From Massilia aquatica (lineage in GTDB: Bacteria; Pseudomonadota; Gammaproteobacteria; Burkholderiales; Burkholderiaceae_D): 64,000 bases of DNA. Below, in pieces: positions 13,201 through 48,512 of the stretch. The stretch is from the NCBI RefSeq assembly GCF_011682045.1, contig NZ_VVIW01000029.1:1-64000 (forward strand), in the 5' to 3' direction. The notes below the pieces were generated by a model that saw nothing but the letters and a program-made list of their open reading frames with translations, did not search any database and had not been told where the DNA came from. Within the stretch, counting starts at the first letter, position 1, and every line of letters begins with the position of its first letter. Made by a program: the position numbers and the translations under genes.

Positions 13201-14352
13201 TCAGACTGTCTCGCCGTGGGTTTCAATGATGGCGGCAAGCGGCCTGCGCAGGCACTCGCCGTGCCGCTGCCTGATCGCACCGAAACGCGCGAAAAAAACG
13301 ATGCGCCGGTCGCCCCCGGCAAGGTGCTGCAATTGGCCGCGCGCCCGGTCGTGCTGCAGCATCACGCTGAGCGGGTGCAGCGCCAGTCCGAGCCGCTGCG
13401 CGTTCAGCCACACTTCCATCAGGCGCGCGCCGGCCTGGACCATCACCGTCGATGCAAGGTTGTCCGACGGCAGGCTGCACAACAGCAGTTGCGCCGAGTC
13501 TTCCACCAGCGCCGCCAGTTGCGCCGCCATGTGATGCGGCACGCGCACGATACGCAGCACTTGCATGACCTCCGGTGCCAGCACACATTGCATGATGCGC
13601 GTACGCAGCGGCGACATCGGTCCCATCAGGCTATGCAGATAAAAACCGTCTTCGGCCGGCTTGCGCGGATCGAAATGCAGGTAGCGGTAGGTTTCCTTCC
13701 ACGCGCGGTAGCTGGAGAAGTCCAGCGCCGCGAACTGCCGCACCAACCCGGCGGCACGGGCAATAAAGGCCGGGCTGCGTTCCACCCGGAGATGCAGTTG
13801 GTCCCCGGTCAGCTGTTGCGGCCAGTGCCGTTCCAGCAATTGCGCGAGCACCATGTCACTGCAACTGCCCTCGGCAAACGGCGCGCGATGCGTACGGCGC
13901 TGGCGGACGCTGTCTTGCAATCCGGCTAATGCCGTGGCATCTGGAACGCGCTGCGGCTGCAGAGCAAGCAACACCAGGCCCCGGCAGCCATGCCCTTGTT
14001 CCAGCGATTGCAAGAACGGCATGGCTGCCGGGGCCTGCGTATCGAGCCTCTCGAGCCAGTGCCAGTTGCAGTGAAAGCCCAGCGCATCGAAGGCCGCGCT
14101 CAGCAAGCCGAGGAACATGCCGCAACTGAGCTGCATTTCCAGCGTCAGACTGGGTAATGCTCTCAAGGTACGCTTGCGATCGATGCCCAGCAGCAGCAAC
14201 TGCGCGTGCTCCGGCCAGGCATGTGCCGGCAACAGTTGCGCCCGCATGCGCCTGTCTTCGATGTGCACCAGTTTCCATGGCTGGCAGTTGTGCGACGACG
14301 GCGCCTGGCGCGCAATGTCGACCGCTTGTCGCAGGTTTTCTTGAAATTCCAT
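13201..14352 (-). CDS. pigM: PigM-like nitroreductase-family oxidoreductase, 383 aa
   Basis: In prodigiosin synthesis PigM oxidises the alcohol 4-hydroxy-2,2'-bipyrrole-5-methanol to the aldehyde before O-methylation. The N-terminus has the nitroreductase-type FMN-binding start (ARQAPSSHNCQPWKL) and the rest matches the long, diverged RedV/PigM class, with QAGARLMEVWLNAQRLGLAL at the second FMN half-site. Translation probably starts at the ATG at 14352 after AGGGGCGTTG, only nine bases after the pigL stop. It is the last gene of the cluster; the next gene is convergent 40 bases away, so no pigN follows. Confidence 0.85.
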   Translation of the reverse strand: MEFQENLRQAVDIARQAPSSHNCQPWKLVHIEDRRMRAQLLPAHAWPEHAQLLLLGIDRKRTLRALPSLTLEMQLSCGMFLGLLSAAFDALGFHCNWHWLERLDTQAPAAMPFLQSLEQGHGCRGLVLLALQPQRVPDATALAGLQDSVRQRRTHRAPFAEGSCSDMVLAQLLERHWPQQLTGDQLHLRVERSPAFIARAAGLVRQFAALDFSSYRAWKETYRYLHFDPRKPAEDGFYLHSLMGPMSPLRTRIMQCVLAPEVMQVLRIVRVPHHMAAQLAALVEDSAQLLLCSLPSDNLASTVMVQAGARLMEVWLNAQRLGLALHPLSVMLQHDRARGQLQHLAGGDRRIVFFARFGAIRQRHGECLRRPLAAIIETHGETV

Positions 14353-14361
14353 CAACGCCCC

Positions 14362-15108
14362 TTAGCCGTCCCCGTGTGACACGCACTGCCCTACCAGCGC
14401 CAGCGCGTAATCGCCGATCAGCGCGCCGTAGCCGCTCAGCTGCGTTCCCTGGCTGCCCGGCAACTGTGCCAGCAGGCGCGGCGACAGGCGCCATGACAAG
14501 CGGCCGTCGCCGCCGATGGCTTCGAGCTCGATGTCGGCAAACCAGCCGAATATGCTTTTCCCGTGTGCCTTCATGAAGGCTTCCTTGAAGGCCCAGACCG
14601 CGGTAAGGACGGCATCGCCGCCGGCGGCGCTGAGGCGCGATTCGTGCGCGGTAAATGCCATCTCGCGTGCCGCATCCGGAAACGGCCTGACACGCTCGAT
14701 ATCGATGCCGACCGGATACGCACTGGCCGCAGCGACCGCATAGCCTTGCGAATGGCTGATGCTGACATGGCCACCGGCTGCCTGCGGCTGGCCGCGATTG
14801 TGTTCGGCGCTGCTGTTGCCGATGACCAGCGCATGCAAGGGCGATTCAGCACCAGACTGCGCATGCAGATGCTGTAATGCGGCCTTGGCGGAGACGCGCC
14901 CGGCCATCCATTCGCGGCGCCGCTTGGCCAGCCGCAATCCGTGCAGCCGCTCGCGCTCGGCATTGCCAAACATGCGTGCGAGGTAAACAGGATCATGTTC
15001 GCGCCGCGCTACCGCGTCGACCGACACTGCGCTGACAACGCAGTCACCGATGCCCACTATCCACGCCGTTTCCGTCTGCGGCAACAGGATTGCGGCAATC
15101 CCGCTCAT
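14362..15108 (-). CDS. pigL: PigL-like 4'-phosphopantetheinyl transferase, 248 aa
   Basis: This enzyme moves phosphopantetheine from CoA onto carrier-protein serines, here presumably PigG and the two carrier domains of PigH. The Sfp-type signature is present: GHVSISHSQGYAVAAAS, the magnesium-binding GIDIERVRPF, and the WAFKEAFMKAHGKSIFG block. The length is normal for the Sfp/Gsp group. The ATG overlaps the TGA of pigK (ATGA), so the two are translationally coupled. Confidence 0.92.
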   Translation of the reverse strand: MSGIAAILLPQTETAWIVGIGDCVVSAVSVDAVARREHDPVYLARMFGNAERERLHGLRLAKRRREWMAGRVSAKAALQHLHAQSGAESPLHALVIGNSSAEHNRGQPQAAGGHVSISHSQGYAVAAASAYPVGIDIERVRPFPDAAREMAFTAHESRLSAAGGDAVLTAVWAFKEAFMKAHGKSIFGWFADIELEAIGGDGRLSWRLSPRLLAQLPGSQGTQLSGYGALIGDYALALVGQCVSHGDG

Positions 15109-15425
15109 GCAGGCGCCTGGTAACCGGCGCCGAGCTGCGTGCCGGCGACTTCCTCCACCACTTCGGCCATCGTGGAAAAGCCTTCCACCAGCCGCGCGAA
15201 GCTCGCGCTGGCCATGTCGCGCTGGAATGCCGCGTCGCTGCTCACCTTGATGAGCTCGATATAGTGGAACGGCGCATCATGCGCACTACTGACCCGGTGC
15301 ACGTCGAAACTGCGCACACTCGGCAATTCCGGACAGGTCGCATAGTCGGTCTCCAGTACCCAGTTTTCGAAAGCCTGCGCATGGCCGATGTCAAGCAGGC
15401 GGATTTTATGGACGATCGATTGCAT
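15105..15425 (-). CDS. pigK: PigK, RedY/HapK-like small protein, 106 aa
   Basis: This small soluble protein occupies the pigK position and has the length and fold pattern of the RedY/HapK family, a ferredoxin-like alpha-beta domain (FHYIELIKVSSDAAFQRDM). The biochemical role in prodigiosin clusters is not settled; a helper role in bipyrrole formation has been suggested for relatives. It starts 15 bases after the pigJ stop and its stop overlaps the pigL start. Confidence 0.85.
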   Translation of the reverse strand: MQSIVHKIRLLDIGHAQAFENWVLETDYATCPELPSVRSFDVHRVSSAHDAPFHYIELIKVSSDAAFQRDMASASFARLVEGFSTMAEVVEEVAGTQLGAGYQAPA

Positions 15426-15440
15426 GTGAGACTCCCGTGG

Positions 15441-18170
15441 TTAGTGAACGCCGCTATCTGCTTGCAGCAGCAGGTGGTAATTGATGCCGCCGGTGCCGAA
15501 GGAACTGACCGCCGCGCGCCGGCAGCCGTCGACCGCATCCCAGCGCGTGTTGACGGTCACCAGTTCAGCCGGGATGCCCGCCAGCGGCAACTGCGGATCG
15601 ATCCGGCGGCGCAGCAAGGTGGCCGGCAGCGCATGCCGCTGCAAGGCGAGCACCGTTTTCAACAAGCCGGCGGCGCCAGCGGCGGCGAAGGTATGACCGA
15701 TGTTCGATTTGACCGAACCGATGCGCAGCGGCACTGCGCGCGCGCCGCCGTACACGCTGCCGATCGACGTCAGTTCCGCCAGATCGCCCAGGCGCGTGCC
15801 GGTACCGTGCGCTTCGACGTACTGCACGCTCGCTGGCGCATAGCCGGCCTGCGCGAAGGCGCGGCGCATCGCCAGCGCCTGCCCGTCCGGATCGGGCGCG
15901 GTCATCGACACGGCATCGGCGGAGCCGCCAACGCCGGTGATCGTCGCATGAATCCGGTCGCCGTCGCGCAGCGCATCGCTCTGCCGCTTGAGCACGAACA
16001 GCGCCGCGCCATCGCCCGGCGAGAAGCCGTCGGCATGCTCGGCGAACGGCGCTATCCTTTGTTGCGACAGCATCATTTGCGAGGAACAGAGCACCAGATC
16101 GCGCAGGTTGGCCGGCAATTCGACGCCGCCGGCCAGCACCAGGTCGTAGCGATGCCGACGCAAGGCCAGCACCGCATTGTTGAACGCTGCCAGCGACGAC
16201 GCGCAGGCCGCTTCCAGCGCGACCGGCATCGCGGCCAGGCCGAAGCAGGCCGACACCAGTGCCGCACTGCCGCTGGCAAGGTAGCCGTCCAGCGTGAAAT
16301 GATCGATGCCCTTGTCCGCCGTCGCGCCATCGGGCACGCTTCCCAGGGTGCGCGCCAGTTCGGGCGCGTGCAGCCGGCACGCGAGTTCGCGCTCGCGGCC
16401 CAGGCTGAGATTGGAGGCGAGCATCACCGCGGTGCGGCCGAGCTTGCCGCGCTTGTGCGCCAGGCCGAAATCGGCCAGTGCTTCGGCGGCAACGTGCAGG
16501 GTCAGCTTTTGCGCGATATCCAGCCCGGCAGCGCGCTTCGGGAATATTTTATATGCGGCAAGACCGGCATCGTACAGGGCGCGCTGCTTGAGGTCGGCGC
16601 CGTATTGCGCATAGCTCGACAGCACAGCGGCCTCGCCTTCGCCAAAATAGGCGGCGCGCGGCAGCACGCTTTCCGGCAGCGGCTGCACTGCATCAAGGCC
16701 GTCGAACAGGCGCTGCGCGAAGTCGGTGCTATTGCTGCAGGGACCGAAGGCGCCGCCGATGCCGACGATCGCAATCGCTTCCTGCCGTTCTTGCGCAGGC
16801 ACCCTGTCGGACGGCAATGCATGACTGGCACTGTCGGGCGCCGACAGCAGCAGATGCCATTGCACGCCGGTCAGGCTGCTGCCAAAGACGCCGGCAAGCT
16901 GCGGCGCGTCGCCAGGCCAGGCCATCGCGGCATCGGGATACGCCATACCGGCACGCGCATGCAGCGCTGCCGCACTGCGCATGCGCGGCAAGGTTTTTTC
17001 GTGCAAGGCCAGGCTGCTGCCTGCTACCGCGGCCAGTGCCGCATTGGCAAAGGTATGACCGAATGTGGCGACACTGGCGCCAAGGTGCAGCGGCCGCTGC
17101 TTGCCTTGCGCACAGGCATCGCTCAAGACGCTCAACAACTGCGGCGCCTGGCTGCCGATGCCGGGCAGCACGCAGTCGATATACTGTTGCTGCGCCGCCG
17201 TCACGTCCGCCTGTGCACAAGCTTCATTGATCACATGGAACGCCGCCGTGCCATCCACCGCATAAGCGAATGCCCCCGGCGCGTCCTGCCTTGCCGCACC
17301 CATGCCGCGCAGCACGCTGTAGATGCGGTCCTTGTCGCGGCGCGCATCGGACCAGCGTTTGAGCAGCAGCGCGGTGGCGCCTTCGCCCATGGGCGTGCCC
17401 GCGCCGTCCTGCGCAAAAGGGTGGCCGCCCAAAGCGCCGGTAAAACCCTTTCTTGCCAGTGCCAAGGGCGTCAGAAGGCTCTCGATGCGTTGTCCGCTGG
17501 CGACGATGACTGCCCTGCTCTGGCCGCTGTGAAGCGACAGGCTGGCTGCCTCCAGCAGCGCGTAGCCGGTCGCATCTGCGCATTCGATTGCCTGCACCGG
17601 ACCACGCAGCGACAGGAAGGAGGCAATGCGCGCCGGAATGCTGCTTGCCATTTCGCCGACCCGGTCATGCGAGGAGGAACCGAAGCGCGCGCGCAATGCC
17701 TCCTTCAGGCGCGAAAATTGATCGGCGCCGCCAGCAAGTTCATGCGCCAGCCGCACGCCGTCCACCTTCAAGGCGTTGGCGATGGTGCTGTCGAAGCCGA
17801 AGCAGGTGCCGCACATGACGGCCACGTCGTCGCGCGGCAGAGCGCGCTTGTCATAGCCGGCATCGCGCACGCACTCGTCCGCCACCTGCAACAGCATCAA
17901 CATCATGTGCGAAACCGATTTGCGGTAGACCGGCGGAATCCGGAAGCGCTTGAAATCGCATTCCATCTCGTCGAAAAAGGCGCCGTGCCATCCTCGCAAC
18001 TGTTCGCGCACGGCGCCGTCAGTGTCCCAGTAACGTGCCAGCGGCAGCGGCGCAAAGTGCGACGTCCCCGCCTGCAGCTGGCGCAAGAACGCCTCCTTGC
18101 CGCGCGCCTGTGGATACAGGCAACCGATGCCGACGATCGCGATCGGCTCGAAATCGGGCGGCTTATGCAT
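15441..18170 (-). CDS. pigJ: PigJ-like double ketosynthase-type protein, 909 aa
   Basis: PigJ extends pyrrolyl-2-carboxyl from the PigG carrier using malonyl on PigH. Two ketosynthase-like modules are visible. The first (from IAIVGIGCLYPQ) has ECADATGYALL where an active ketosynthase has TACSSS, so its nucleophilic Cys is replaced by Asp and it is probably a non-catalytic partner like a chain-length factor. The second (from about residue 460, IAIVGIGGAFGP) has the active Cys at about residue 656 (EAACASSL), His in VEAHGTGTRLGD and His in KSNIGHTFAAAG. The gene overlaps the pigI stop by eight bases. Confidence 0.93.
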   Translation of the reverse strand: MHKPPDFEPIAIVGIGCLYPQARGKEAFLRQLQAGTSHFAPLPLARYWDTDGAVREQLRGWHGAFFDEMECDFKRFRIPPVYRKSVSHMMLMLLQVADECVRDAGYDKRALPRDDVAVMCGTCFGFDSTIANALKVDGVRLAHELAGGADQFSRLKEALRARFGSSSHDRVGEMASSIPARIASFLSLRGPVQAIECADATGYALLEAASLSLHSGQSRAVIVASGQRIESLLTPLALARKGFTGALGGHPFAQDGAGTPMGEGATALLLKRWSDARRDKDRIYSVLRGMGAARQDAPGAFAYAVDGTAAFHVINEACAQADVTAAQQQYIDCVLPGIGSQAPQLLSVLSDACAQGKQRPLHLGASVATFGHTFANAALAAVAGSSLALHEKTLPRMRSAAALHARAGMAYPDAAMAWPGDAPQLAGVFGSSLTGVQWHLLLSAPDSASHALPSDRVPAQERQEAIAIVGIGGAFGPCSNSTDFAQRLFDGLDAVQPLPESVLPRAAYFGEGEAAVLSSYAQYGADLKQRALYDAGLAAYKIFPKRAAGLDIAQKLTLHVAAEALADFGLAHKRGKLGRTAVMLASNLSLGRERELACRLHAPELARTLGSVPDGATADKGIDHFTLDGYLASGSAALVSACFGLAAMPVALEAACASSLAAFNNAVLALRRHRYDLVLAGGVELPANLRDLVLCSSQMMLSQQRIAPFAEHADGFSPGDGAALFVLKRQSDALRDGDRIHATITGVGGSADAVSMTAPDPDGQALAMRRAFAQAGYAPASVQYVEAHGTGTRLGDLAELTSIGSVYGGARAVPLRIGSVKSNIGHTFAAAGAAGLLKTVLALQRHALPATLLRRRIDPQLPLAGIPAELVTVNTRWDAVDGCRRAAVSSFGTGGINYHLLLQADSGVH

Positions 18171-19791
18171 CGGCGGTCACGATGTCGTTGCGCTCGTGCG
18201 CATGCGGCATGGCGGCGCTGTCGCTGGTGCCGCGCGTGAGCTGCTCCAGCGCGCGGTAGTCGATCTTGCCATTCGCATTCTTCGGCAATGCTTCCAGTTG
18301 CCGGGCAAGCCGGGGGATCATGTAGCGCGGAAGCCGGGCGCCGCAGTAGCGCTTGATATCGAGCACGCCAAGTCGTTCGCCGGCATGCCGCAGCGTGTAA
18401 CAGGCAACGAGGTGTTGCGTATCCCCCGCGCACGCCGCCACGACCGCGACTTCCGCGATACCCGGCATCGCCCCCAGCACCGCTTCGATTTCGCCCAGCT
18501 CGATACGGTTGCCGTTGAGCTTGAGCATGCGGTCCTTGCGGCCGTGGTAGTACAGCAAGCCGTTCTCGATGCCGACCAGGTCGCCTGTGGCATGGCGCCC
18601 GTGCAGGTGGTTGATGTGATTTTCCGGTTCCTGGCGGCGCCAGTAGCCGGGCGTCACGCACGCGCCGGAAACGAGCAGTTCGCCGATCGCACCTTCGCCG
18701 CTGACCGGCTGCCCGTCGGCGTCGACAATTTTCGCCATCACGCCGGGCAGCGTACTGCCGATACAGACTGGCTTGTCGCGCGCCATGTCCTCGTCGCGCA
18801 CCTGGTAGTACAGGCAGACGTTGGTCTCGGTGGGGCCGTACAGGTTATACAGCGCGCATGCCGCGGGCAGGCAGGATTTCAATGCCCGCAGTTGCCGTAT
18901 CGGGAATACCTCGCCAGCGAACAGCACATGGCGCAACGATGCAGTCACCTCGGATGTCAGCTCGCCGCTGCCAGCGAGCAGCGCGAGTGCCGACGGCACG
19001 CTGTACCAGATGCTGACCTGGTGGCGCCGGATGCCGGCGATCAGCGCCGCCAGATCGCGCTGCTCGTCCTCGCGCACGATCCATACCGCAGCGCCGACCG
19101 CGGCGGCGGCGAAGTAATCGAAGGTGCTCAGGTCGAAGTGAAACCCGGCATGGTTGGCGACGACATCGTGCGGCGTCAGCTTCAATTCCGCCAGTGCCCA
19201 GGCGATGAAACTGTGCAGGTTAGCGTAGCTGATCCGCACGCCTTTCGGCACGCCTGTGGAGCCGGAGGTAAACAGGATGGCGGCGAGATCGTCCACACCG
19301 GCGGCGCATGGTGGCGGCAGTTCGACCGGCGGCGCCATTGCGGCAAGCTGCATCACCGCCGTGTCGCCAAGCGGCGCATCATCGCAAGGCGCATCATCAA
19401 CGATCAACACCAGTTTCAGCGTATCGCGCCGCCAGCCGTCCAGCGCACGGAAATGCGCGGCATCCGTGACCAGCACCGCCGGTTCGGCGCTGTCCAGGAT
19501 TTTCCTTGCGCGTTGCGCCGGCTGGGTGCCGTCCAGCGGCACATAGACGGCGCCGATTTCCATCGCCGCATACAGCGACAAGGCATACTCCCGGCATTTC
19601 GGCAGCCAGATGGCGACGCGGTCGCCAGGCTGTGTTCCATGGCGCGCAAAATGGGCGGCGCGCTGGCGCACGGCCTGGTAGAACTGCCTGTAACTGATGG
19701 CGTCAGGATCAACGAATGCAAGACGATCGGGATGTTCCTGCGCCGAGGTGCGCAGGTAATCAATGACGGGGGTGAAGGTTGGAGTGCTCAT
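18163..19791 (-). CDS. pigI: PigI-like L-prolyl-AMP ligase, 542 aa
   Basis: This is an adenylation-domain enzyme that activates L-proline with ATP and loads it on the PigG carrier. The core motifs are present in order: LFTSGSTGVPKGVR (near residue 174), NLYGPTETNVCLYY, ATGDLV, LNGNRIELGEIE, and LPKNANGKIDYRAL with the catalytic Lys. Length is normal for a stand-alone prolyl-AMP ligase. It starts 152 bases after the pigH stop, the longest internal gap in the cluster, and overlaps pigJ. Confidence 0.92.
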   Translation of the reverse strand: MSTPTFTPVIDYLRTSAQEHPDRLAFVDPDAISYRQFYQAVRQRAAHFARHGTQPGDRVAIWLPKCREYALSLYAAMEIGAVYVPLDGTQPAQRARKILDSAEPAVLVTDAAHFRALDGWRRDTLKLVLIVDDAPCDDAPLGDTAVMQLAAMAPPVELPPPCAAGVDDLAAILFTSGSTGVPKGVRISYANLHSFIAWALAELKLTPHDVVANHAGFHFDLSTFDYFAAAAVGAAVWIVREDEQRDLAALIAGIRRHQVSIWYSVPSALALLAGSGELTSEVTASLRHVLFAGEVFPIRQLRALKSCLPAACALYNLYGPTETNVCLYYQVRDEDMARDKPVCIGSTLPGVMAKIVDADGQPVSGEGAIGELLVSGACVTPGYWRRQEPENHINHLHGRHATGDLVGIENGLLYYHGRKDRMLKLNGNRIELGEIEAVLGAMPGIAEVAVVAACAGDTQHLVACYTLRHAGERLGVLDIKRYCGARLPRYMIPRLARQLEALPKNANGKIDYRALEQLTRGTSDSAAMPHAHERNDIVTADA

Positions 19792-19943: not shown

Positions 19944-21887
19944 CTATCCCCGCACCGCCACCCCCACCTCCTTGGCCGCATCGACCAGTATCTGCGCCGC
20001 CTCGTCGAGATCATCGGCCGTGTGCTCGCTGCTCACGCTGATGCGCAAACGCGCATCGCCGACAGCGGCGCCCGGGAACACCACGGTCTGGCAATACATG
20101 CCGCGGGCACGCGCCGCGCGTCCGAATTCCAGCGTCTGGCGGTCATCGCCGACCACCACCGGGAGGATCGCGCTGGCGGAATGCCCGAGGTCGAACCCGG
20201 CTTCCAGCAAATGGCCGCGCAAGTGATGGACGTTGCGCCACAGCTTGCTGATGCGCTGCGGCTCGCGCTCCATCACGTCGATCGCGGCGATCAGGCCGGC
20301 CGCGACCGCCGCCGGGATGGTGGCTGCAAACACATAGGAATGCGAATAGAAACGCAGGTAATCGACCACCTCCTCGTCGCCGCACACGAAGCCGCCGACG
20401 CCAGCCAAGGTCTTGCTCATGGTGCCGACTTCCAGGTCCACCGCGCCCTTCATGCCGAAATGCTCGGTGGTGCCCGAACCGGTGCGGCCGAGCACACCGG
20501 TGGAGTGCGCGTCGTCCACCAGCACCCGCGCACCGTATTGCTTCGCCAGCGCGACCAGGCGCGGCAAGTCGACCACATCGCCGTGCATGCTGAACACGCC
20601 GTCGGTGGCGATCAGCTTGCCGCCGTCGTGGTCGGCATATTTCTGCAGGATTCTTTCCAGTCCGTCCAGGTCGTGCGGATAAATCTTGCGCGCTGCGCCG
20701 GCCAGCTTGCAGCCGTCCTGGATGCTCATGTGGTTCAGCGCATCGGTAAAGATCAGATCGTTCTGCCCGGCCAGCGCGGAAATGCAACCCAGGTTGGCGG
20801 AATAGCCGGACGGGTAGACGATACATGCCTGCCTGCCCTTGAGCTTCGCCAGCCGCCGCTCCAGTTCCATGTGCAGCACATTGGTGCCGCCGATCAGGCG
20901 GCAGCCGGTATTGGTGGCGCCGTATTCGCGCACGCCCTTGACGATCGCCTCGATCACTTCCGGATGATTCGCCAGGCCCAGGTAATTGTTCGACGCAAAC
21001 ATCAGGAATTCCCGGCGCTTGCCGCTGACCTCGTCGTAGATCACCGCACGGTTGCTGCAGCGCGATTCCAGCGGCATGCCGTACCAGTACAACTGTTCTT
21101 GCTGCTTGCGCTGATAGAAGGTATTGAACTCGCGCGCCTTATGGAACAGGTCGCGATGCGGGATGTGGACGAAATCGCGCATCGTCCGGGCGTCGTCCGC
21201 TGCCGGCTCTGGCGCCACGGAAAGCGCGCCGGGGTCGGCATGGCCGAGGTTGTCCATGAACGCCGACCACTTCTTTTCTTCCGTCGCCGGCGGCGCTGCG
21301 ATTACCGGCGCTGCCGGTTCCAGCATGTCCGCTTGCACCAAAGGCCGCAGATGCGCGATGACCTGTGCAATGCTGGTCAACCCTGCCGGAAAGGTGACGG
21401 CGGCAATCCCAAGCAACCTGGGAAGCTCGGACAACACGGCTGCCTGGGTAACGGAGTCGATGCCGAGATCACTCTCGAGCCCGGCATCCGGCATGAGCTC
21501 GCCCGGCTTGTAACCGGTGTGCCGGCTGTAGGCGGCGATGACCGCCGTCGTCAACGCATCGGCTGCGTGCTCCGGCACCCAGGCTCGCTGAGGCAAGGCA
21601 AGCGTCTTTCCATCCTGTTCCAGGCACTCCCCGATATGCGCCAGCACCAGCGCAATCGTGCTTGTGTGTTGCGGATTTTGCCGGCTGGGCAGGCCGAGCG
21701 CCTTGTACAGCTCCGCAAGGGTGGTGGCCAGCGTCACCGAGTCGATCCCGAGATCGCCCTCGAAATCGGCATCCGGCACGAGGTCGGCGCGTGCGTAGCC
21801 GGTGTGGGTCTGGAACATGTCCAGCACATACGCCCGCAGTCCCGCGTCGGGCGTTGCGATATGGTCGATGACCTGGTCGTTCATCAT
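19944..21887 (-). CDS. pigH: PigH-like carrier-carrier-aminotransferase, 647 aa
   Basis: PigH carries malonyl on its carrier domains and its PLP domain joins serine to the pyrrolyl-beta-ketothioester to make 4-hydroxy-2,2'-bipyrrole-5-methanol. Two acyl-carrier motifs are in tandem: DLGIDSVTLATTL (near residue 50) and DLGIDSVTQAAVL (near residue 140), each with a phosphopantetheine Ser. The C-terminal 400 residues form an alpha-oxoamine-synthase domain (FASNNYLGLANHPEV; VDDAHSTGVLGRTG) with PLP Lys near residue 492 in TMSKTLAGVGG. The start overlaps the pigG stop (ATGA). Confidence 0.94.
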   Translation of the reverse strand: MMNDQVIDHIATPDAGLRAYVLDMFQTHTGYARADLVPDADFEGDLGIDSVTLATTLAELYKALGLPSRQNPQHTSTIALVLAHIGECLEQDGKTLALPQRAWVPEHAADALTTAVIAAYSRHTGYKPGELMPDAGLESDLGIDSVTQAAVLSELPRLLGIAAVTFPAGLTSIAQVIAHLRPLVQADMLEPAAPVIAAPPATEEKKWSAFMDNLGHADPGALSVAPEPAADDARTMRDFVHIPHRDLFHKAREFNTFYQRKQQEQLYWYGMPLESRCSNRAVIYDEVSGKRREFLMFASNNYLGLANHPEVIEAIVKGVREYGATNTGCRLIGGTNVLHMELERRLAKLKGRQACIVYPSGYSANLGCISALAGQNDLIFTDALNHMSIQDGCKLAGAARKIYPHDLDGLERILQKYADHDGGKLIATDGVFSMHGDVVDLPRLVALAKQYGARVLVDDAHSTGVLGRTGSGTTEHFGMKGAVDLEVGTMSKTLAGVGGFVCGDEEVVDYLRFYSHSYVFAATIPAAVAAGLIAAIDVMEREPQRISKLWRNVHHLRGHLLEAGFDLGHSASAILPVVVGDDRQTLEFGRAARARGMYCQTVVFPGAAVGDARLRISVSSEHTADDLDEAAQILVDAAKEVGVAVRG

Positions 21888-22162
21888 GCTACCCCCGCTA
21901 CTTGTGCCAGTGCCGGCCGGCTTTCGCTTTGCAGGCGCTCGACCAGATCGAGCATGTGCTGCACCGATTTGAAATTGTTCGGGACGACCGCCTTCAGCGG
22001 CACCGTCACGCCGGCTTCCCGCCGCAGCAGGTCGACCAGATCGAACAAGGCACTGGAATCGATGATGTTCAATTCCAGCAAGGGCGTGTCCAGCGCAAAC
22101 TGCTGGGACTCGCCGCCGAGGTAGTTCTCCGCGATATACGCAAGAAGCTTGTTTCCTAACAT
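21884..22162 (-). CDS. pigG: PigG-like peptidyl carrier protein, 92 aa
   Basis: This stand-alone carrier protein holds proline, then pyrrole-2-carboxylate, as a thioester. The phosphopantetheine attachment site reads LNIIDSSALFDLVDLL, with the first Ser after Asp as the likely site (about residue 36). Length is normal. It is loaded by PigI, oxidised on by PigA and primed by PigL, all in the same cluster. Its stop overlaps the pigH start. Confidence 0.9.
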   Translation of the reverse strand: MLGNKLLAYIAENYLGGESQQFALDTPLLELNIIDSSALFDLVDLLRREAGVTVPLKAVVPNNFKSVQHMLDLVERLQSESRPALAQVAGVA

Positions 22163-22209: not shown

Positions 22210-23229
22210 TTACCGCTTTTCGCCGATGAACAAGGTGCGCGGCCCCGGTATCGCCTGCGCCCTGGCATTGACGAAGCCCGCTTCGGTGAAACGTTGCAGG
22301 TATTGCGCGCAGGTCGATTCGATGCCGCCGTCAGTGGACACCAGCATGTTGATCGACAGCAGCGACGTGAACAGTGGGCCGCTTTCGTCATCGGCCAGCG
22401 GGGTCTCGCTGGCGATGAAGGTGCCGCCCGCCGGCAGCGCCTCGTGGATGTGACGCAGGATCTGCATCTGGATATCCGGCGCATAGTCGTGCAGCATCCA
22501 GCCGAGATGAATCAGGTCGTGTTCCCCCTTGGGGATGGTGCCGCTGATGACGTCGCCCGCCACGATCTTGATGCGCTCGGCGTATCCGTTGCCGGCGATC
22601 TTGTCGCGCACGAAGCTGGTCGCCTGCGGCAGTTCGCAGATGCTCAGGCCAAGCTGTGGATAGCGCGCAGCGACCGCCATCGGCAAGGTGCCGATGCCGC
22701 TGCCGATATCCATGAATTTCCTGTAGCCGGAAAAATCGAATCCTTCCAGCATGCCTTCGATAAAGGGTTGCGCGAAAATACCGAGGAATTCCTGGAAATC
22801 AACGACATCCTGCGGGTTCTGGTACAGGATGCTGAACCAGCTGCGGTCATCGCCGAACGCCGCCCGACGCTGATCCTTGTCCTCACGCACCCCTTGCGCC
22901 GTATGCGACCACAGCGGATACAGGAAGGTATCGATATGCCGGCCGAGCCAGCCCAGCCATTGCGCTGAACCACTCACCATGTAGTCGCGCGCCGCCTGGG
23001 TGAGGCGGAAATGATCCTCCTCCTTCGCCAGCAGGCCGATGGCAGTCAAGGCGATCAGCAGGCGCTTGCCCGATTGCAGCGGAATGTTGCGGTGCCCGCA
23101 AATGGCTTGCGCCGTCGCCGGGCCTTGCTCCAGCGCGTCGAAGATTTTCAGTTCCAGGGCGGACGTGATCGTTTTGGTCTTGAAAAATCCCATCATCAAG
23201 TCAACGATCTGTTCTTTATTCATTTCCAT
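22210..23229 (-). CDS. pigF: PigF-like S-adenosylmethionine O-methyltransferase, 339 aa
   Basis: PigF methylates the 4-hydroxyl of 4-hydroxy-2,2'-bipyrrole-5-carbaldehyde to give MBC. The protein has the plant-type O-methyltransferase layout: an N-terminal winged-helix dimerisation part (ALELKIFDALEQGPATAQAI) and a C-terminal SAM-binding domain with FMDIGSGIGTLPMAVA near residue 170, then HDLIHLGWMLHDYAPD containing the expected catalytic His region. It starts 13 bases after the pigE stop; an internal ATG two codons later is also possible. In Serratia PigN assists this step, and no pigN is seen here. Confidence 0.93.
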   Translation of the reverse strand: MEMNKEQIVDLMMGFFKTKTITSALELKIFDALEQGPATAQAICGHRNIPLQSGKRLLIALTAIGLLAKEEDHFRLTQAARDYMVSGSAQWLGWLGRHIDTFLYPLWSHTAQGVREDKDQRRAAFGDDRSWFSILYQNPQDVVDFQEFLGIFAQPFIEGMLEGFDFSGYRKFMDIGSGIGTLPMAVAARYPQLGLSICELPQATSFVRDKIAGNGYAERIKIVAGDVISGTIPKGEHDLIHLGWMLHDYAPDIQMQILRHIHEALPAGGTFIASETPLADDESGPLFTSLLSINMLVSTDGGIESTCAQYLQRFTEAGFVNARAQAIPGPRTLFIGEKR

Positions 23230-23242
23230 GTTGCGGTTCCCA

Positions 23243-28247
<5,005 letters not shown>

Positions 28248-28299: not shown

Positions 28300-31200
28300 T
28301 CATGCGATTGCTCTTTGCCCGACCAGCGCTTCGCCGGCTTCGGCAAGCCGTTCCTCGATGCGCACCACGCCGCCGTCGCCGTCGAGGTAGATCAGGTCGC
28401 CCGTGCGGATGGTCTGGGTCGCCTGCTTCGCATTGACGACCGCCGGAATACCGAACTCGCGCGACACGATGGAGCTGTGCGACAAGGCCGAGCCGATGTC
28501 TGCGACCACCCCGGCCGCCAGCACGAACAGCGGCGTCCACGATGCATCGGTAAAGCGGGCCACCAGAATTTCGCCCTGGCGGAATTCGCCCGCCTGCCGG
28601 TTGAGGTCGGTGATCACGCGGGCGCGCCCCAGCGCCACGCCGGGGCTCGCGCCCAGGCCCTGCAGCAGGTCGCCCTGCGCCGCATCCAGCAACACCTGAT
28701 CGTCGCGCTGCGGCACGTGGCCGCCGATCAGCGCCATTGGCGGCTCCTTCAGACGCTCGTTGCGCAGATGCTGCTGACGGTTGCGCGCAATCAGCTGCGG
28801 AGAAAATGCCTGCTGCGCCGTTTTGCGCCCGGCCACGTAATCGCGCAATTCGTTGAAATCGATGTACGGCAAGTCCTGTATGCCGCACACACCTTCCGCC
28901 TCGAGGCGGCGCAGCACCTCGACGATGATCTTGCGGTAGAACCAGGTCTCGGCGATGAAGGTCGGACGCGTCGCTTCGCGCCGTTCCGCCATCGTCGCGT
29001 AGGCGGCGATCACGAAGCGGAATGTCATCCTTGCCTTGAGCGGCAGTTTGTCCAGCAACTGCCGCGTGTCTTCTTCGCGCGCCTTGCCGATCGCCGCCAG
29101 ACGCGCTTCAAGCTGCACGTCGCTGCTCAGGTACAGACGGATGATTTGCAGCAGATAGGTCGGATCGTCGTTCCAGCGCGGAATGCTCAGTTCGAATTCC
29201 TGGCGGCCACGCGAACCGAAGTCCGCGAGGAAGGCGCCAAAATCCTCGTCCCAGAAACGGCGCCCCTCCGGATGCTGCTGCAAGCTATCCGCCAACTGCG
29301 CCAGCGGCGTCTCCAGGAACAATGCGCGCAGCGCCGGCAAGCGCTCGACGCGCGCCGCCAGTTCGCACACGCCACGCGTCACTTCGATGGTACGCAGGTT
29401 GTTCATCGATGCCTTGATGCGGTTCTGCAGCCCTTGTCCTTCGTTCCCCAGCCACTTCTCGCACAGCTCCGCCAGCGCATCGTAGAGCGCGAACGATTGC
29501 AGGAAGAACGGCATGTAGGCGGCGCAGGATGCGAGGAAGTAGCGGTCGATGCGCTGCAGTTCGGCATCGAGCTGCGCCAGGCTCATCTTCTCGAGCTCCA
29601 GCTTGCGGAAGCGTTCGCTTTCGCGCTGGCGCAAGGCGATCATCTTCTTCACCGTGCCGCCGGCGGTGGCCATATTCTGCACCTGGCATACCAGCCAGTA
29701 CAGGCTGCTCTTGAAGAACTGGAACCCGGACACCGGTTCGCCGTAGGGATTTTTGTAGTGCGTGAAGTCGACGTCGGCTGTCGCGTAGCGCCGCGTGAAC
29801 TTCATCGGCTCGTGCGTGGGAGGGCATTGCGTCAGCAGCCGCGCCGATGCGGAGATGTTCAGGTACACATGACCCTGCAGGTAACCGACGTAATACTGCG
29901 AACTGCCGATGTCGAGCAAGCCCATGGTCTTGACTGCCGGGCCGTGCACGTGGTGCTGGTAGAAGCGGGTGAAGGACAGTCCGAGCGGCGTCATCAGCCC
30001 GGTCAGGATTTCGCCGGTGTCCATGCGCGAAAACATCGTGTTGTCGCGCACCTGCTGATCGCTTTCCTGCGCGTCGCCGTACTGCTTGCCGGCGACGGAA
30101 GCGGTCACCGTGATCGGGCGCGCCTGCAGGATCCAGATACTGCCATCCTTTACTGCCCATTCGATATCGAGTTCGCAGCCGTAATGGCGGCGAATCCGTG
30201 CGGCACAGGCCGCCAGTTCGGATGCCTGCCTGTCGCTCAGGCTCGGCTGATCGACGAATTGCGGCGGCACCTCCTGCATCGCGACGCCATCGGCCGTGCG
30301 CGCGCACATCACCGGCTTGGCCCGGACAAACCGTTCTATCAGCGCATGACTGTCGCTGTCCACCACATAGGTATCGGTGCTCGCCTGGCCCGACACCACG
30401 CCCTCGCCCAAGCCCCAGCACGATTCGATCACCGTGCGTGCGGCATCGCCGCTGATCGGGTCGGCGGTGAACAACACGCCGGCGGCATCGGCAGCGATCA
30501 TTTGCTGGATCACCACCGCGATGCCGCTGTCGGCCCGCTGGCTCCCCTGGTAGGCCTGCGCGCGCTCGTTCCACAGCGACGCCCAGCAACGCTTGACGCA
30601 ATCGAGCAGCGCGCTTTCGCCCTCCACGTGCAGGAAGGTGTCGTACTGGCCTGCGAATGATTGTGCATCGCCGTCTTCATTGACGGCGGAGGAGCGCACC
30701 GCGACCCGGCCGCTACCGAGTTCGCGATAGGCAGCGACGATCGCATCGTGCAGCGCGGGCGGCAACGGCGCTTGCGCAATGCGTGCGCGGATCTCGGCGC
30801 AGGTGTCGCGCTCGACCTTGTCCATGCCGTCGATCCAGGCCGCCAATCCGGATGCCTGCATAAAAGCATGAAAGGCATCGACCGTCACGCAACAGGCGCG
30901 CGGCACCGGGAAGCCGGCGCCGATCAAGGTATTGAGCGAGTTCGCCTTGCCGCCGATACGCTGCACGCCGGTCGCAGGGTTGCCGGCTATTTCCATCACA
31001 TGCAGGCCGGAACCCAGTCCTTGCAGCGCCATCGTATCGGCCGCCGCGCGCTCCAGGTAGGCCTGCGCCTGTTGTGCCGCGGCGCACCCTGCGCCCACTG
31101 CGCTCTCCAGGTTGCCGATGCCGACGCTGTCCTGGTTGGCAAAGGAAACCCCAGCCACCGGCTGCGACGCCCGCACAAACAAGTCGGCTTTCATTTGCCC

Positions 31201-32676
31201 GAGCGTGGCGACCACCAGGGCACGCGGCCAACGCCAGATCCGGATGTCTTCCACCTCATCCGTGGAGAGTCCCTTCGCCTGCAGCATTTCCGACACTTCT
31301 TGCAAGGTCGCCTGCTGCAGCTGCGCAAAATCTGTCTTGCCGAGTTTGCCCTGGTTGAGCAGTTCCGCCACCGGCTTGAGCAAGGTCAGCACACCGGCTT
31401 TCTTGCCGTCGTCGCGGTCCAGCCAGTTGGCGACCACGCACACGCGGCTGCGGCACCAGGCCAGCGGCGCAGCGGCGGCGGTATCGCCTTCGATCACATA
31501 GCCGCCGAAGTAGTCGGTCCAGGCAGCGTTGCGCAGGTAGACGTTCGCGATGCAATAGTCGCGGTGCTGGATCTGACGTATCGCATGCTGCTGCTGCGCC
31601 GGCAAACCGGCAACCGCATCGAGTGCCGCATGCTTGGGTGCGGCCCACACCACCGCGCCGGCGCTGACCTCGCTCTGCACGCCGCCACGTTCAAAGGTGA
31701 TGCGGTAACGTTCGCCATCACGCGCAACCGTGCGCACGCGCGCCCCGCTGACAATACGGCAGTTGCCACGCTCGCGCAACGCCGCCTGCAGACGTTCGCT
31801 GAGATAACCGTTCCCGCCGGGGAAGGTCACCAGCGTGCCATACAAGTAGCCGACCAGGAAGTGCAGCCCGACATAGGCGGACACATCCGCCGCCGACAGA
31901 CATTCCACTTTCAGGGTCGTCTCGACCGCATCGCGCACCAGCGGGCCGAACTTCGCATCCGGCGCCAGCGCCGTCGGCAGCCGCGAACGCGCTTTCTCAT
32001 CGAACAGCAGTTCGGCCAGCGACATCGAATCGAACTGTTCCATTTCCTCGCGCGTCCAGCCGCATCCGGCTTGCCACGGCAGCGCCGGATACTTGCCGTC
32101 CTCCTTGCGGAAGCGCTGCAGATAGGCATACAGTTCCGCAAACACCGGGTCGCCCAGCTTCTTCGGCGCAGCGATGAATTTCTTGCCGCGCAATGCGGCG
32201 CCGAGCAGGTTAAAGGTCAGTCCATACATCGCCGGGTCCAGCAAGGCCTTCGGCTGCTTCAGCAGCCCCAGCGTGACCTCCCCCAGACCGCGCAGCAGAT
32301 GGCGCGTGTTGAACAGCACGAACTGACTGTCGCCGGTGGAGCGCCATGCATTCGACAAGCCGAGCCCGCTCAGCAATTGCGCCGTGTCCGAACCGGGCAC
32401 CGGCTCCTGGAAGCAGCTGCCTGCCGTGGCGAAGCGCAGTTCACCGCGCTGCCCGCTGCGCGCCGCGCCGCCCACCGTGGTCTCGCGCTCCAGCACCAGC
32501 ACGCGATGGCCGGCAAGCTTCCAGGCTGCCACCAGGCCGGACAGTCCGCCGCCGACCACCACCACGTCGCAAGCGCCGGCCGCGTCGCCGTCCCGTACAC
32601 CGCGATCGTCCGCAGCGGGCATGGCCGCTGCGCCTTCTTCATAATCCTTGCTGGGGAACTTTTTCTGCGTTGCCAT
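28300..32676 (-). CDS. PigB-PigC fusion: FAD oxidase joined to prodigiosin ligase, 1458 aa
   Basis: One uninterrupted frame carries both activities that are separate PigB and PigC proteins in Serratia. Residues ~36-550 are an FAD-dependent amine-oxidase-like domain (VVVVGGGLSGLVAAW, glycine motif at 42-47; VLERETTVGGAARSG), expected to oxidise dihydro-MAP to MAP. Residues ~564-1458 match PigC, the PEP-synthase-like ATP-dependent enzyme that condenses MBC with MAP: GGKANSLNTLIGAGFPVP, RVAVRSSAVNEDGDAQSFAG, LDIEWAVKDGSIWILQARP, and the phosphohistidine-type SALSHSSIVSREFGIPAVV with His near residue 1400. The linker (~545-563) is short. It sits between pigA and pigD, exactly where pigB and pigC are expected. 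A sequencing-made fusion cannot be fully excluded, but the frame is clean across the join. Confidence 0.92.
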   Translation of the reverse strand: MATQKKFPSKDYEEGAAAMPAADDRGVRDGDAAGACDVVVVGGGLSGLVAAWKLAGHRVLVLERETTVGGAARSGQRGELRFATAGSCFQEPVPGSDTAQLLSGLGLSNAWRSTGDSQFVLFNTRHLLRGLGEVTLGLLKQPKALLDPAMYGLTFNLLGAALRGKKFIAAPKKLGDPVFAELYAYLQRFRKEDGKYPALPWQAGCGWTREEMEQFDSMSLAELLFDEKARSRLPTALAPDAKFGPLVRDAVETTLKVECLSAADVSAYVGLHFLVGYLYGTLVTFPGGNGYLSERLQAALRERGNCRIVSGARVRTVARDGERYRITFERGGVQSEVSAGAVVWAAPKHAALDAVAGLPAQQQHAIRQIQHRDYCIANVYLRNAAWTDYFGGYVIEGDTAAAAPLAWCRSRVCVVANWLDRDDGKKAGVLTLLKPVAELLNQGKLGKTDFAQLQQATLQEVSEMLQAKGLSTDEVEDIRIWRWPRALVVATLGQMKADLFVRASQPVAGVSFANQDSVGIGNLESAVGAGCAAAQQAQAYLERAAADTMALQGLGSGLHVMEIAGNPATGVQRIGGKANSLNTLIGAGFPVPRACCVTVDAFHAFMQASGLAAWIDGMDKVERDTCAEIRARIAQAPLPPALHDAIVAAYRELGSGRVAVRSSAVNEDGDAQSFAGQYDTFLHVEGESALLDCVKRCWASLWNERAQAYQGSQRADSGIAVVIQQMIAADAAGVLFTADPISGDAARTVIESCWGLGEGVVSGQASTDTYVVDSDSHALIERFVRAKPVMCARTADGVAMQEVPPQFVDQPSLSDRQASELAACAARIRRHYGCELDIEWAVKDGSIWILQARPITVTASVAGKQYGDAQESDQQVRDNTMFSRMDTGEILTGLMTPLGLSFTRFYQHHVHGPAVKTMGLLDIGSSQYYVGYLQGHVYLNISASARLLTQCPPTHEPMKFTRRYATADVDFTHYKNPYGEPVSGFQFFKSSLYWLVCQVQNMATAGGTVKKMIALRQRESERFRKLELEKMSLAQLDAELQRIDRYFLASCAAYMPFFLQSFALYDALAELCEKWLGNEGQGLQNRIKASMNNLRTIEVTRGVCELAARVERLPALRALFLETPLAQLADSLQQHPEGRRFWDEDFGAFLADFGSRGRQEFELSIPRWNDDPTYLLQIIRLYLSSDVQLEARLAAIGKAREEDTRQLLDKLPLKARMTFRFVIAAYATMAERREATRPTFIAETWFYRKIIVEVLRRLEAEGVCGIQDLPYIDFNELRDYVAGRKTAQQAFSPQLIARNRQQHLRNERLKEPPMALIGGHVPQRDDQVLLDAAQGDLLQGLGASPGVALGRARVITDLNRQAGEFRQGEILVARFTDASWTPLFVLAAGVVADIGSALSHSSIVSREFGIPAVVNAKQATQTIRTGDLIYLDGDGGVVRIEERLAEAGEALVGQRAIA

Positions 32677-32803: not shown

Positions 32804-33952
32804 CTAACGCAGCCCCATGTGCCGTGCGATGAACTCGCGCTGTATTTCATTGGTGCCGGAGAAGATGCGCGCCGGCAGTGCATCGAGCAGCAAGCGATCG
32901 ATGCCGGTCTCGCTGCAGACACCGGCGCCGCCAAAGATCTGTATCGCGTCCAGCCCGCATTGCACCGCGCACTCGGACACCCACAGCTTGCTTTGTGCGA
33001 TCGCCTCTTCATGCGGCAGGTCCTGATCGTAGAGCCAGCCGGCGCGGTACAGCAGCAGGCGCGATGTTTCCAGGCGCAGCTTGAAGTCGACCAGCCGGTC
33101 CGACACCGCCTGGTTGTGTCCTATCGGACGGCCGAACTGCTGACGTTCGCGCGCATGCGTGACGCATTGCGCAAGCACGCGCTCCATCGCGCCGACATAG
33201 GCGGCAAACAGGCAGCCGCGCTCCCAGATCATGGAGTCCTGGAAGATGCTCGCGCCCGCGCCTTCCTCGCCCACGCGCGCCCATGCGGGTACTCTGCAGT
33301 CGTCCAGATGGACGCTGCCCCAGGGCGAGGTGCACAGGCCCGACTTGTGCTCACCGGTCGTCACAGTGAGGCCAGGCGTTGCGCGCGGGATCAAAAAGGC
33401 GCTGATGCCGAAATAGGATTGGTGCGCATCGGTCTTCGCATACAGCAGGAAGACATCGGCCACAGGCGCATTGGTGACGAAACATTTTTCGCCGTTGAGG
33501 ATGTAGTGCTCGCCGTCGCGCCGCGCGCTGCTGCGCATGGCGAATGCGTCGGAACCGGAGCCGGGCTCGGTGATCCCATTGGCGGCAATCAGGCTGCCTT
33601 TCGCCATACCGGACAGGTAGCGCTCGTGCAGTTCGCGCGAACCATGGCGCCACAGCGGCACGGCGCAAGCGAACATGTGCGCACACAAGGAGAACACCAG
33701 CCCCATGTCGACGCAACCCCGGCCGAGCGCCTCCACCGCGAGCATGGTATCGAGCGCGCCAAAGCCGGAACCGCCCCACTCTTCAGGCAAGGGCAAACCG
33801 GCCAGGCCGATCTCTGACGCCTGCGTCCACTTGTTGCGGTCGAAATGGGAAGACGCGATGCGTTCGCTGGCCGAGGCCGACAACACGTCGCGGGCAAAAC
33901 GATGGATGTGTGAAACGGCTTCATGCTGCTCGCTGCTGAGTCGAAAATCCAT
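32804..33952 (-). CDS. pigA: PigA-like L-prolyl-carrier dehydrogenase, 382 aa
   Basis: PigA is an acyl-CoA-dehydrogenase-type flavoenzyme that oxidises prolyl-S-PigG to pyrrolyl-2-carboxyl-S-PigG. Family landmarks are visible: AIAQSKLWVSECAVQCGLDA, IFGGAGVCSETGIDRLLLDA, and the C-terminal ARIFSGTNEIQREFIARHMG. Length is normal for the family. The ATG follows AGGGCAAGTGC. It is the first gene of the cluster, with a 500-base non-coding stretch before it, and pigBC starts 127 bases after its stop. Confidence 0.93.
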   Translation of the reverse strand: MDFRLSSEQHEAVSHIHRFARDVLSASASERIASSHFDRNKWTQASEIGLAGLPLPEEWGGSGFGALDTMLAVEALGRGCVDMGLVFSLCAHMFACAVPLWRHGSRELHERYLSGMAKGSLIAANGITEPGSGSDAFAMRSSARRDGEHYILNGEKCFVTNAPVADVFLLYAKTDAHQSYFGISAFLIPRATPGLTVTTGEHKSGLCTSPWGSVHLDDCRVPAWARVGEEGAGASIFQDSMIWERGCLFAAYVGAMERVLAQCVTHARERQQFGRPIGHNQAVSDRLVDFKLRLETSRLLLYRAGWLYDQDLPHEEAIAQSKLWVSECAVQCGLDAIQIFGGAGVCSETGIDRLLLDALPARIFSGTNEIQREFIARHMGLR

Positions 33953-36267: not shown

Positions 36268-37740
<1,473 letters not shown>

Positions 37741-47484: not shown

Positions 47485-47663
47485 AACAAACACCCTTACT
47501 GATAGTAGAAATCTGTTCGCAGAGCGGGACTGACTATGTTTTCTTGTTATTCTTGGGGCCGTGCCGCACAATTGATGCGTTGCAGAGCATTTTACAGCCT
47601 GCGCCGCGAATTTACAGCGCACAACTTGAAACATTGGCAGCACAGGAAGCCGACACGACAAAT

Positions 47664-48512
47664 ATGACCACAGAACCACGCCCACCCCTGCCCACCTCCG
47701 CCCGGACCGTGTTTTTCGTTTCCGATGGCACAGGTATTACCGCAGAGACATTCGGCCACGCCGTCCTCACCCAGTTCGAAATGCGTTTCCGCCAGGTACG
47801 CCTGCCCTTCATCGACACGCTCGACAAGGCCTACGACGCGGCGCGCAAGATCAACGAGGCGCTCACCACCGACGGCCAGCGCCCGATCGTGTTCTCGACC
47901 CTGGTCAAGCCCGACCTGTCGAACGTGATCCGGCAGTCGCGCGGCATGCACATGGACTTGATCCAGACTTTTGTTGCCCCACTGGAACAGGAACTGGGCG
48001 TCAAGTCGACCCACACCATCGGGCGCTCGCACAATATTGTCGACAGCCAGGAGTACAAGAACCGCATCGAAGCGATCAATTTCTCGCTGGCGCATGACGA
48101 TGGGCAGTCGCACAAGAACCTGTCGGCCGCCGATGTGATCCTGGTGGGCGTGTCGCGCTCGGGCAAGACCCCCACCAGCCTGTATTTGGCGATGCAGTAC
48201 GGCATCAAAGCGGCCAACTATCCGCTCATTCCCGACGATTTCGAGCGCGGCCGCCTGCCCTCGTCGCTGCCGCCGTTCCGCGACAAGATTTTTGGCCTGT
48301 CGATCACGCCGGAGCGCCTGTCCGAAATCCGCCATGAGCGGCGCGCCGGCAGCAAGTACGCGTCGATCGAGAATTGCCGCTACGAAGTCAACGAGGCCGA
48401 GCTGATGATGAAGCGCGAAGGCATCCGCTGGCTGTCGTCGACCACCAAGTCCATCGAGGAAATCGCCACCACCATTTTGCAGGAAATCAAACCGGATCGG
48501 CGCGAGTATTAA
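47664..48512 (+). CDS. ppsR: PEP synthase regulatory protein (PSRP), 282 aa
   Basis: This bifunctional kinase/pyrophosphorylase of the DUF299 family switches PpsA off and on by phosphorylating a threonine next to its catalytic histidine. Hallmarks are [19 protein letters not shown] near the start, [20 protein letters not shown], and the P-loop-like [19 protein letters not shown]. The ATG at 47664 gives the family start; an upstream frame extension of 40 residues is not family-like. It is divergent from ppsA, a common arrangement, and its stop is three bases before the helicase gene. Confidence 0.94.

Follow-up and report, generated by a model that had tools for sequence, protein, structure and literature searches.

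Introduction

The gene considered here has close known relatives in the oxidase PigB and the ligase PigC of Serratia and in their counterparts in Hahella, for which we draw on PMC7065143 and PMC10187637. Truncated PigB from which the membrane part had been removed gave no pigment in Serratia sp. ATCC 39006, and the Hahella oxidase HapB on its own restored some (PMC7065143). HapB has no membrane domain, a homologue of that part being supplied by the separate gene HCH_06023, and the enzyme is active in solution, depends on oxygen and makes H2O2 (PMC7065143). In newly built Pseudomonas putida strains, PigC used fed 2-methyl-3-n-amylpyrrole (MAP) only when PigB was co-expressed; a membrane-associated PigB-PigC complex has been speculated, and a pigB-pigC fusion in Janthinobacterium lividum is mentioned in that context (PMC10187637). 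Here we describe such a fusion in a 64,000-nucleotide stretch of Massilia aquatica DNA (contig NZ_VVIW01000029.1, positions 1 to 64,000), referred to as the window. The gene, at 28300-32676 on the minus strand, encodes what we judge, on balance, to be a bifunctional and probably soluble oxidase-ligase whose two enzymes are tethered by a short disordered junction, with the history and the role of the tether proposed below.

A single oxidase-ligase chain

An earlier note on this DNA had described one continuous protein with the oxidase first and the ligase second, and both points held. The minus-strand interval 28300-32676 is a single frame of 1458 amino acids with an ATG start, lying between pigA and pigD. 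Along the chain, a PigB-type oxidase (residues 35-540) is followed by a short junction and a full PigC ligase (residues 559-1442). The NCBIfam PigC profile NF052631 aligns with residues 559-1442 over its entire length (positions 1-883 of 883) at 1494.8 bits versus a cut-off of 1300. The PigB profile NF053556 aligns with residues 3-539 at 612.9 bits, below its cut-off of 850, and covers profile positions 127-657 of 659; positions 1-126 are unmatched, and the chain thus does not contain a full-length PigB of the Serratia type. Pfam places an amine-oxidase-type flavoprotein domain at residues 45-536, PPDK_N at 572-870 and PEP-utilizers at 1366-1436.

These matches divide the gene into five parts, all on the minus strand. 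An N-terminal extension (residues 1-34; 32575..32676) is predicted to be disordered, and among the six fusions described below its ratio of nonsynonymous to synonymous substitution rates (dN/dS) is 0.91. The putative flavin adenine dinucleotide (FAD)-dependent dihydropyrrole oxidase domain of the PigB/HapB type (31057..32574) is identified by NF053556, the Pfam Amino_oxidase match, an FAD motif and fold matches to spermidine dehydrogenase, monoamine oxidase and protoporphyrinogen oxidase. The junction (residues 541-558; 31003..31056) has the same length in all six fusions. The ligase (28351..31002) is complete, comprising the ATP-grasp part (572-870), a middle part and the PEP-utilizers mobile domain (1366-1436), as judged from NF052631, Pfam and an LSHS motif. 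The C-terminal tail with the stop codon closes the frame (28300..28350; dN/dS 0.74).

Catalytic motifs were compared across the 30 rows used for the trees. Two loci had been left out of these: L047 (Serratia rubidaea), whose frames are broken, and L014, which comes from the same species as L013. The LSHS histidine, which by analogy with the phosphoenolpyruvate (PEP)-synthase family would be the phosphorylated residue, is kept in 30 of 30 rows. The FAD motif region is aligned in 29 of the 30, the exception being the G237 row, which is cut at the end of its locus; the full-length G237 start does show the motif. An acidic residue follows the second strand of this motif, as in enzymes of the HapB type: Glu in the window chain and Asp in Hahella sp. 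HN01. In HapB this residue is Asp69 (PMC7065143), its place in the alignment being our own reading.

Distribution of the fusion

How many relatives share the fusion had been left open by the earlier note. Among 392 genomes of the family, PigC was found in six, the window's own included, and in all six it lies in a chain with the oxidase, in one frame of 1461 codons from stop to stop. Each of these genes spans 4377 bases from the ATG to a single terminal stop, with none internal, and together they occur in three genera; searches of those genera returned the same six genomes as the ones with PigC (4 of 17, 1 of 40 and 1 of 74). A sample of the class gave PigC in 1 of 369 genomes, again the window's own. 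A scan of the named-species genome collection, based on two peptide patterns and not exhaustive, flagged 166 stretches, of which 26 were confirmed as PigC loci. Twenty-two of these are unfused, and the four fused ones, from Massilia mucilaginosa, M. frigida, M. rubra and Rugamonas rubra, are all among the six fused genomes. Four plasmid records, from Methylocystis (two strains), Pseudoalteromonas xiamenensis and Thioclava, are likewise unfused; two further Thioclava matches were not included.

The PigB-PigC join in the window is therefore confirmed. A sequencing error around 30950-31050, or an error of assembly, would have had to arise alike in six assemblies that share length and frame and show no frameshift, which is very unlikely, to the point that we give it next to no weight. 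The two-protein organization that the earlier note ascribed to Serratia was seen in three of four Serratia loci, the fourth being L047 with its broken frames.

No match to the membrane domain DUF6041 in the fused genomes

Serratia-type PigB is itself a fusion, in which the oxidase carries DUF6041, a small membrane domain, at its N-terminus. In the PigB of Pseudoalteromonas xiamenensis, for example, Pfam finds DUF6041 first (181.8 bits) and the oxidase second, and in Methylocystis and Thioclava it finds DUF6041 as a separate gene. Three ARRANGEMENTS occur among the 30 rows: DUF6041 joined to the oxidase with the ligase apart (14 rows), three separate genes (10 rows: six alphaproteobacteria, two Zooshikella, Hahella and Thiosymbion), and oxidase joined to ligase without DUF6041 (6 rows). 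DUF6041 is present in 26 of 26 unfused loci, including the two dropped from the trees, as classified with a model built from three of those loci (L013, L015 and L016), each of which was independently confirmed by Pfam.

Pfam did not find DUF6041 in the fused chain, nor was it found anywhere in the six fused genomes with either Pfam PF19507 or our own 17-row alignment A2 (best scores 12.8 and 12.3 bits). The same searches recovered all four positive-control records, at 86-186 bits with Pfam and at 152-188 bits with A2, of which the control records are themselves rows. At E-values (E) up to 1, the Pfam search also gave chance matches in 3 of 14 control genomes, none above cut-off. That the six fused genomes might conceal a DUF6041, or hold one that has diverged, was considered and rejected, as nothing above 12.8 bits appeared in any of them with the two models.

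Five residues of DUF6041 are invariant in 17 of 17 A2 rows (Lys23, Glu29, Asn42, Gln89 and Asp111, numbered on the first row, L049:7777-8166), and three of them fall in helices of the predicted model, which suggests a function beyond that of a passive anchor. An electron carrier of the DoxX/MauE kind was tried as an identity and not retained, the matches being weak: 10 of 17 members matched MauE, with E of 0.0005 at best, and 4 of 17 matched DoxX, with 0.0013 at best. The best fold match of the helical model, NACHO/TMEM35A, was not significant (template modelling (TM) score 0.62, E 0.43).

A second membrane protein, PigN (Pfam DUF1295), ends the Serratia and Hahella clusters and was examined as a possible partner in the change. 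At E 1e-5 none of the six fused genomes matched it. Of the unfused genomes or records, 21 were covered and 16 matched strongly (at least 242 bits), two of them having supplied the query. Matches from five Pseudoalteromonas genomes or records, likewise unfused, were only weak (27-78 bits), so loss of PigN is not specific to the fusion and was rejected as its partner. In this search W03 was represented by its plasmid only, and five of the 26 unfused loci (L014, L036, L040, L047 and L048) lay outside it.

Probable origin and spread of the fused gene

In the ligase, oxidase and joint trees alike, the six oxidase-ligase fusions form one group and the DUF6041-oxidase fusions another, requiring two changes, the minimum possible. 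The joint oxidase and ligase tree supports each group at 100/100, with the three-gene clusters between them. A tree forcing both fused groups together was weakly rejected (p = 0.037 in the approximately unbiased test, p-AU), a value that is generous because the choice of groups followed inspection of the first trees. From the separation of the groups and this weak rejection, we infer that the oxidase was fused on two separate occasions, once with DUF6041 and once with the ligase, and that a three-gene ancestor is the parsimonious starting point.

Support for grouping the oxidase-ligase fusions with Hahella and Thiosymbion is 85/84 in the joint tree and 96 (starred) for the ligase. The oxidase tree alone speaks against this, since there Zooshikella and the rows with a DUF6041-oxidase fusion are the ones that group with Hahella and Thiosymbion (95, starred, by a quick method), and owing to this disagreement the position of the fused group beside Hahella and Thiosymbion is only likely. 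In 3 of 24 unfused clusters measured (Hahella sp. HN01, Methylocystis sp. Sn-Cys and Pseudovibrio), the oxidase stop leads straight into the ligase with no shift of frame; in Hahella one stop codon separates them. Little would thus have been needed to join the two. The gene would have arisen once from a Hahella-like arrangement of DUF6041 membrane protein, oxidase and ligase, by joining of the oxidase and ligase frames and loss of the DUF6041 gene.

Its subsequent history very probably included sideways movement within the family. Synonymous differences between genera are 0.038-0.124 for the fused gene versus 0.326-0.478 for guaB (36268-37731 in the window), the only comparison gene, over the same nine pairs. 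The fused gene lies below guaB in 9 of 9 between-genus pairs, by 2.7-11.5 fold, and also in 6 of 6 pairs within the window's genus. The upstream flanks do not match either, and it is this disagreement together with the low divergence that points to sideways movement. Over the 8 kb upstream of the window's pigA, default blastn matched only a single piece, of 278 bases, and this in just one of five loci. The guaA and guaB genes, which adjoin the cluster in the window, are absent from the roughly 7 kb available upstream of the other loci. Only the upstream flank was informative, since the relatives' loci do not reach far enough downstream or were not included.

Predicted structure of the fused chain

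An AlphaFold2 model of residues 1-905 has a mean predicted local distance difference test (pLDDT) score of 80.6, and most of both enzyme domains is confidently predicted. Its predicted TM score (pTM) of 0.61 does not fix the arrangement of the domains. Scores below 50 occur at residues 1-32, 547-557 in the junction, 711-714, 759-764 and most of 859-905. Across the six fusions, dN/dS is 1.63 for the junction, a rough value from 18 codons, versus 0.36 and 0.25 for the two enzyme domains. A crude hydropathy scan for membrane helices picked out only two marginal stretches, at 32-50, which is the FAD strand, and at 718-736, inside the ATP-grasp part. Overall, the model is consistent with two folded enzymes on a loose tether, in a chain that is probably soluble.

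Proposed function and alternative explanations

The N-terminal half would oxidize the dihydro form of MAP (H2MAP) to MAP with FAD and oxygen, and the C-terminal, PEP-synthase-like half would condense MAP with 4-methoxy-2,2'-bipyrrole-5-carbaldehyde (MBC) at the expense of ATP to give prodigiosin. Oxygen serves HapB as acceptor in vitro (PMC7065143), and the oxidase step therefore seems to need no electron acceptor in the membrane. The short disordered tether would keep the two active sites near each other and probably takes over the part that membrane co-location of the separate PigB and PigC is proposed to play in Serratia. Fusion accompanied by loss of the membrane part would be expected if the main purpose of that part is to hold oxidase and ligase close. 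That the fused enzyme is functional in vivo is very probable: M. frigida strain DJPM01 makes prodigiosin as judged by liquid chromatography-mass spectrometry (PMC10213415), and a different strain of the species, CCM 8695 (L026), carries the fusion. We advance more tentatively, and would not yet back, the broader idea that covalent fusion replaced a membrane scaffold, with the oxidase entering two mutually exclusive fusions, either with DUF6041 or with the ligase, DUF6041 then being dispensed with. If this were true, the DUF6041 domain would serve to unite oxidase and ligase, and not to transfer electrons or extrude product.

Several observations weigh against the proposed role of the tether. 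PigC needs no additional protein in vitro, so a tether is not needed for catalysis, and MAP inhibits PigC, so a high local concentration of MAP could also do harm (both PMC10187637). Loss of DUF6041 and fusion are one shared history and not repeated events, and their association may be chance. The recent spread likewise makes the six copies weak evidence of long selection, and they are not six independent tests. The strongest competing explanation is that the oxidase stop was lost by accident, leaving a long chain about as good as two proteins that was then carried along with a spreading cluster. The three in 24 unfused clusters that stand one stop loss away from fusion, and the single, recently spread group in the trees, would suit such an accident. 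Loss of DUF6041 in the same lineage, taken with the proposed PigB-PigC complex (PMC10187637), suggests more than chance, and none of the six genomes has lost the continuous frame, although the time elapsed is short. We therefore regard a neutral accident as somewhat unlikely, and tethering as the preferred explanation.

A closer coupling than tethering, also raised in the earlier note, is true channelling, in which MAP would travel along a closed route between opposed oxidase and ligase active sites. Two consecutive steps lie on one chain in pathway order, and PigB was needed beside the MAP supply in P. putida, as would suit a channel; PigC nonetheless takes externally supplied MAP in vitro and in fed cells (PMC10187637). 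A junction that is disordered and free to vary is easier to reconcile with a loose tether than with a rigid tunnel, and we consider channelling improbable. Production of a separate ligase alongside the long chain, by internal initiation at Met549, is formally possible in the five of six genomes that have ATG at this codon. M. rubra (L027) has ACG there, and no conserved ribosome-binding site was seen 5-10 bases upstream when the codons were read by eye, which leaves this route only a slim chance. Tethering of the two enzymes on one chain thus remains our preferred account.

The surrounding pig cluster and other features

The fused gene sits in a cluster whose genes after pigE run in pig order, all on the minus strand. 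PigA, PigD and PigE, beside the fused gene, all exceed their NCBIfam cut-offs, as expected of a prodigiosin cluster of the MAP pathway: pigA (32804..33952), of the acyl-CoA-dehydrogenase type, scores 676.7 bits with NF053553 (cut-off 500), pigD (25806..28247) 1360 bits with NF053552 (cut-off 950), and the aminotransferase gene pigE (23243..25795) 1420.8 bits with NF053554 (cut-off 850). The open reading frame (ORF) tool starts pigD at a TTG at 28346, overlapping the fused gene; the ATG at 28247 fits better, because the PigD profile match begins at residue 38 of the long form.

Further along lie a pigF-like O-methyltransferase gene (22210..23229; Pfam Methyltransf_2 and place in the cluster) and an ORF for a 92-residue pigG-like small carrier protein (21884..22162), so named from its place in the cluster. 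The pigH gene (19944..21887) encodes a carrier domain and an aminotransferase (Pfam PP-binding and Aminotran_1_2), with 62% and 64% identity to the genes in the same place in Hahella and Serratia, respectively. The adenylating enzyme gene pigI (18163..19791; Pfam AMP-binding) shows 60% and 40% identity to the Hahella and Serratia genes. The ketosynthase gene pigJ (15441..18170), 55% identical to the Hahella gene, scores 488 bits with the NCBIfam PigJ model, so far below the cut-off of 900 that the model would not name it. A pigK-like ORF of 106 residues (15105..15425), also named from its place in the cluster, is followed by the phosphopantetheinyl transferase gene pigL (14362..15108; Pfam ACPS) and by pigM (13201..14355; Pfam Nitroreductase), a nitroreductase-type gene with 36% identity to the Serratia gene and 48% to that of Hahella.

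Four other features were noted in passing. The ligase half has a distant relative (39% over the ATP-grasp part) in an ordinary PEP synthase, which is encoded at 45052-47685, about 11 kb from the pig cluster. A large protein with DUF4011, helicase, MTES_1575 and DUF3320 domains, encoded at 48516-54182, matches the PADLOC candidate defence model PDC-S37 at 1874.5 bits; the opposite frame of 1655 amino acids at 49200-54167, in which Pfam finds nothing, probably does not represent a gene. A regulator-like protein of 1099 amino acids (6889-10188) combines a DNA-binding domain, an nSTAND1 NTPase and TPR repeats. Outside the window, beyond the pig cluster of G237 (L052:9384-10133), lies a protein whose start, judged by eye, resembles a transposase of the IS21 type.

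Comparison with known systems

J. lividum, of the same bacterial family as the window's host, reportedly has a pigCB fusion described by Schloss et al. 2010 (as cited in PMC10187637). The citing sentence presents it too as a PigB-PigC fusion in a pig cluster and is silent on domain order, length and any membrane domain. The fusion itself is thus not new, being already in print for that species (PMC10187637). No mention of it was found in a word search of PMC10213415 and PMC7065143. Beyond PMC10187637, within a search that left most subscription papers outside, no paper naming a pigB-pigC fusion together with prodigiosin and no use of the word DUF6041 were found. Within the same limits, we found no sign that the two exclusive fusions, the sideways spread or the membrane subunit's loss had been described before, and these appear to be new here. 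A natural chain that carries both enzymes and no membrane domain would let the PigB-PigC complex and the role of the membrane domain be tested directly, and the fused chain offers a ready-made component for prodiginine synthesis, whether one-pot or whole-cell.

The ligase half also matches NF052632, the profile of the Streptomyces undecylprodigiosin ligase RedH, at 1001.8 bits, below the cut-off of 1350; undecylprodigiosin is made by a different pathway (PMC7065143). PigB and PigC of Serratia share with the fused chain the two reactions proposed for it and the neighbouring genes, and the window oxidase and ligase are 46% and 56% identical to those of S. marcescens (L041). In contrast to the two chains of Serratia, in which PigB bears the DUF6041 membrane domain, the window encodes one chain without it. 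Hahella, with HapB, HCH_06023 and HapC, comes closer, as its oxidase, like that of the window, lacks a membrane domain, and identities to Hahella sp. HN01 reach 55% for the oxidase and 67% for the ligase. Whereas Hahella sp. HN01 keeps three separate genes, the DUF6041 protein among them, oxidase and ligase are fused in the window and no DUF6041 was found.

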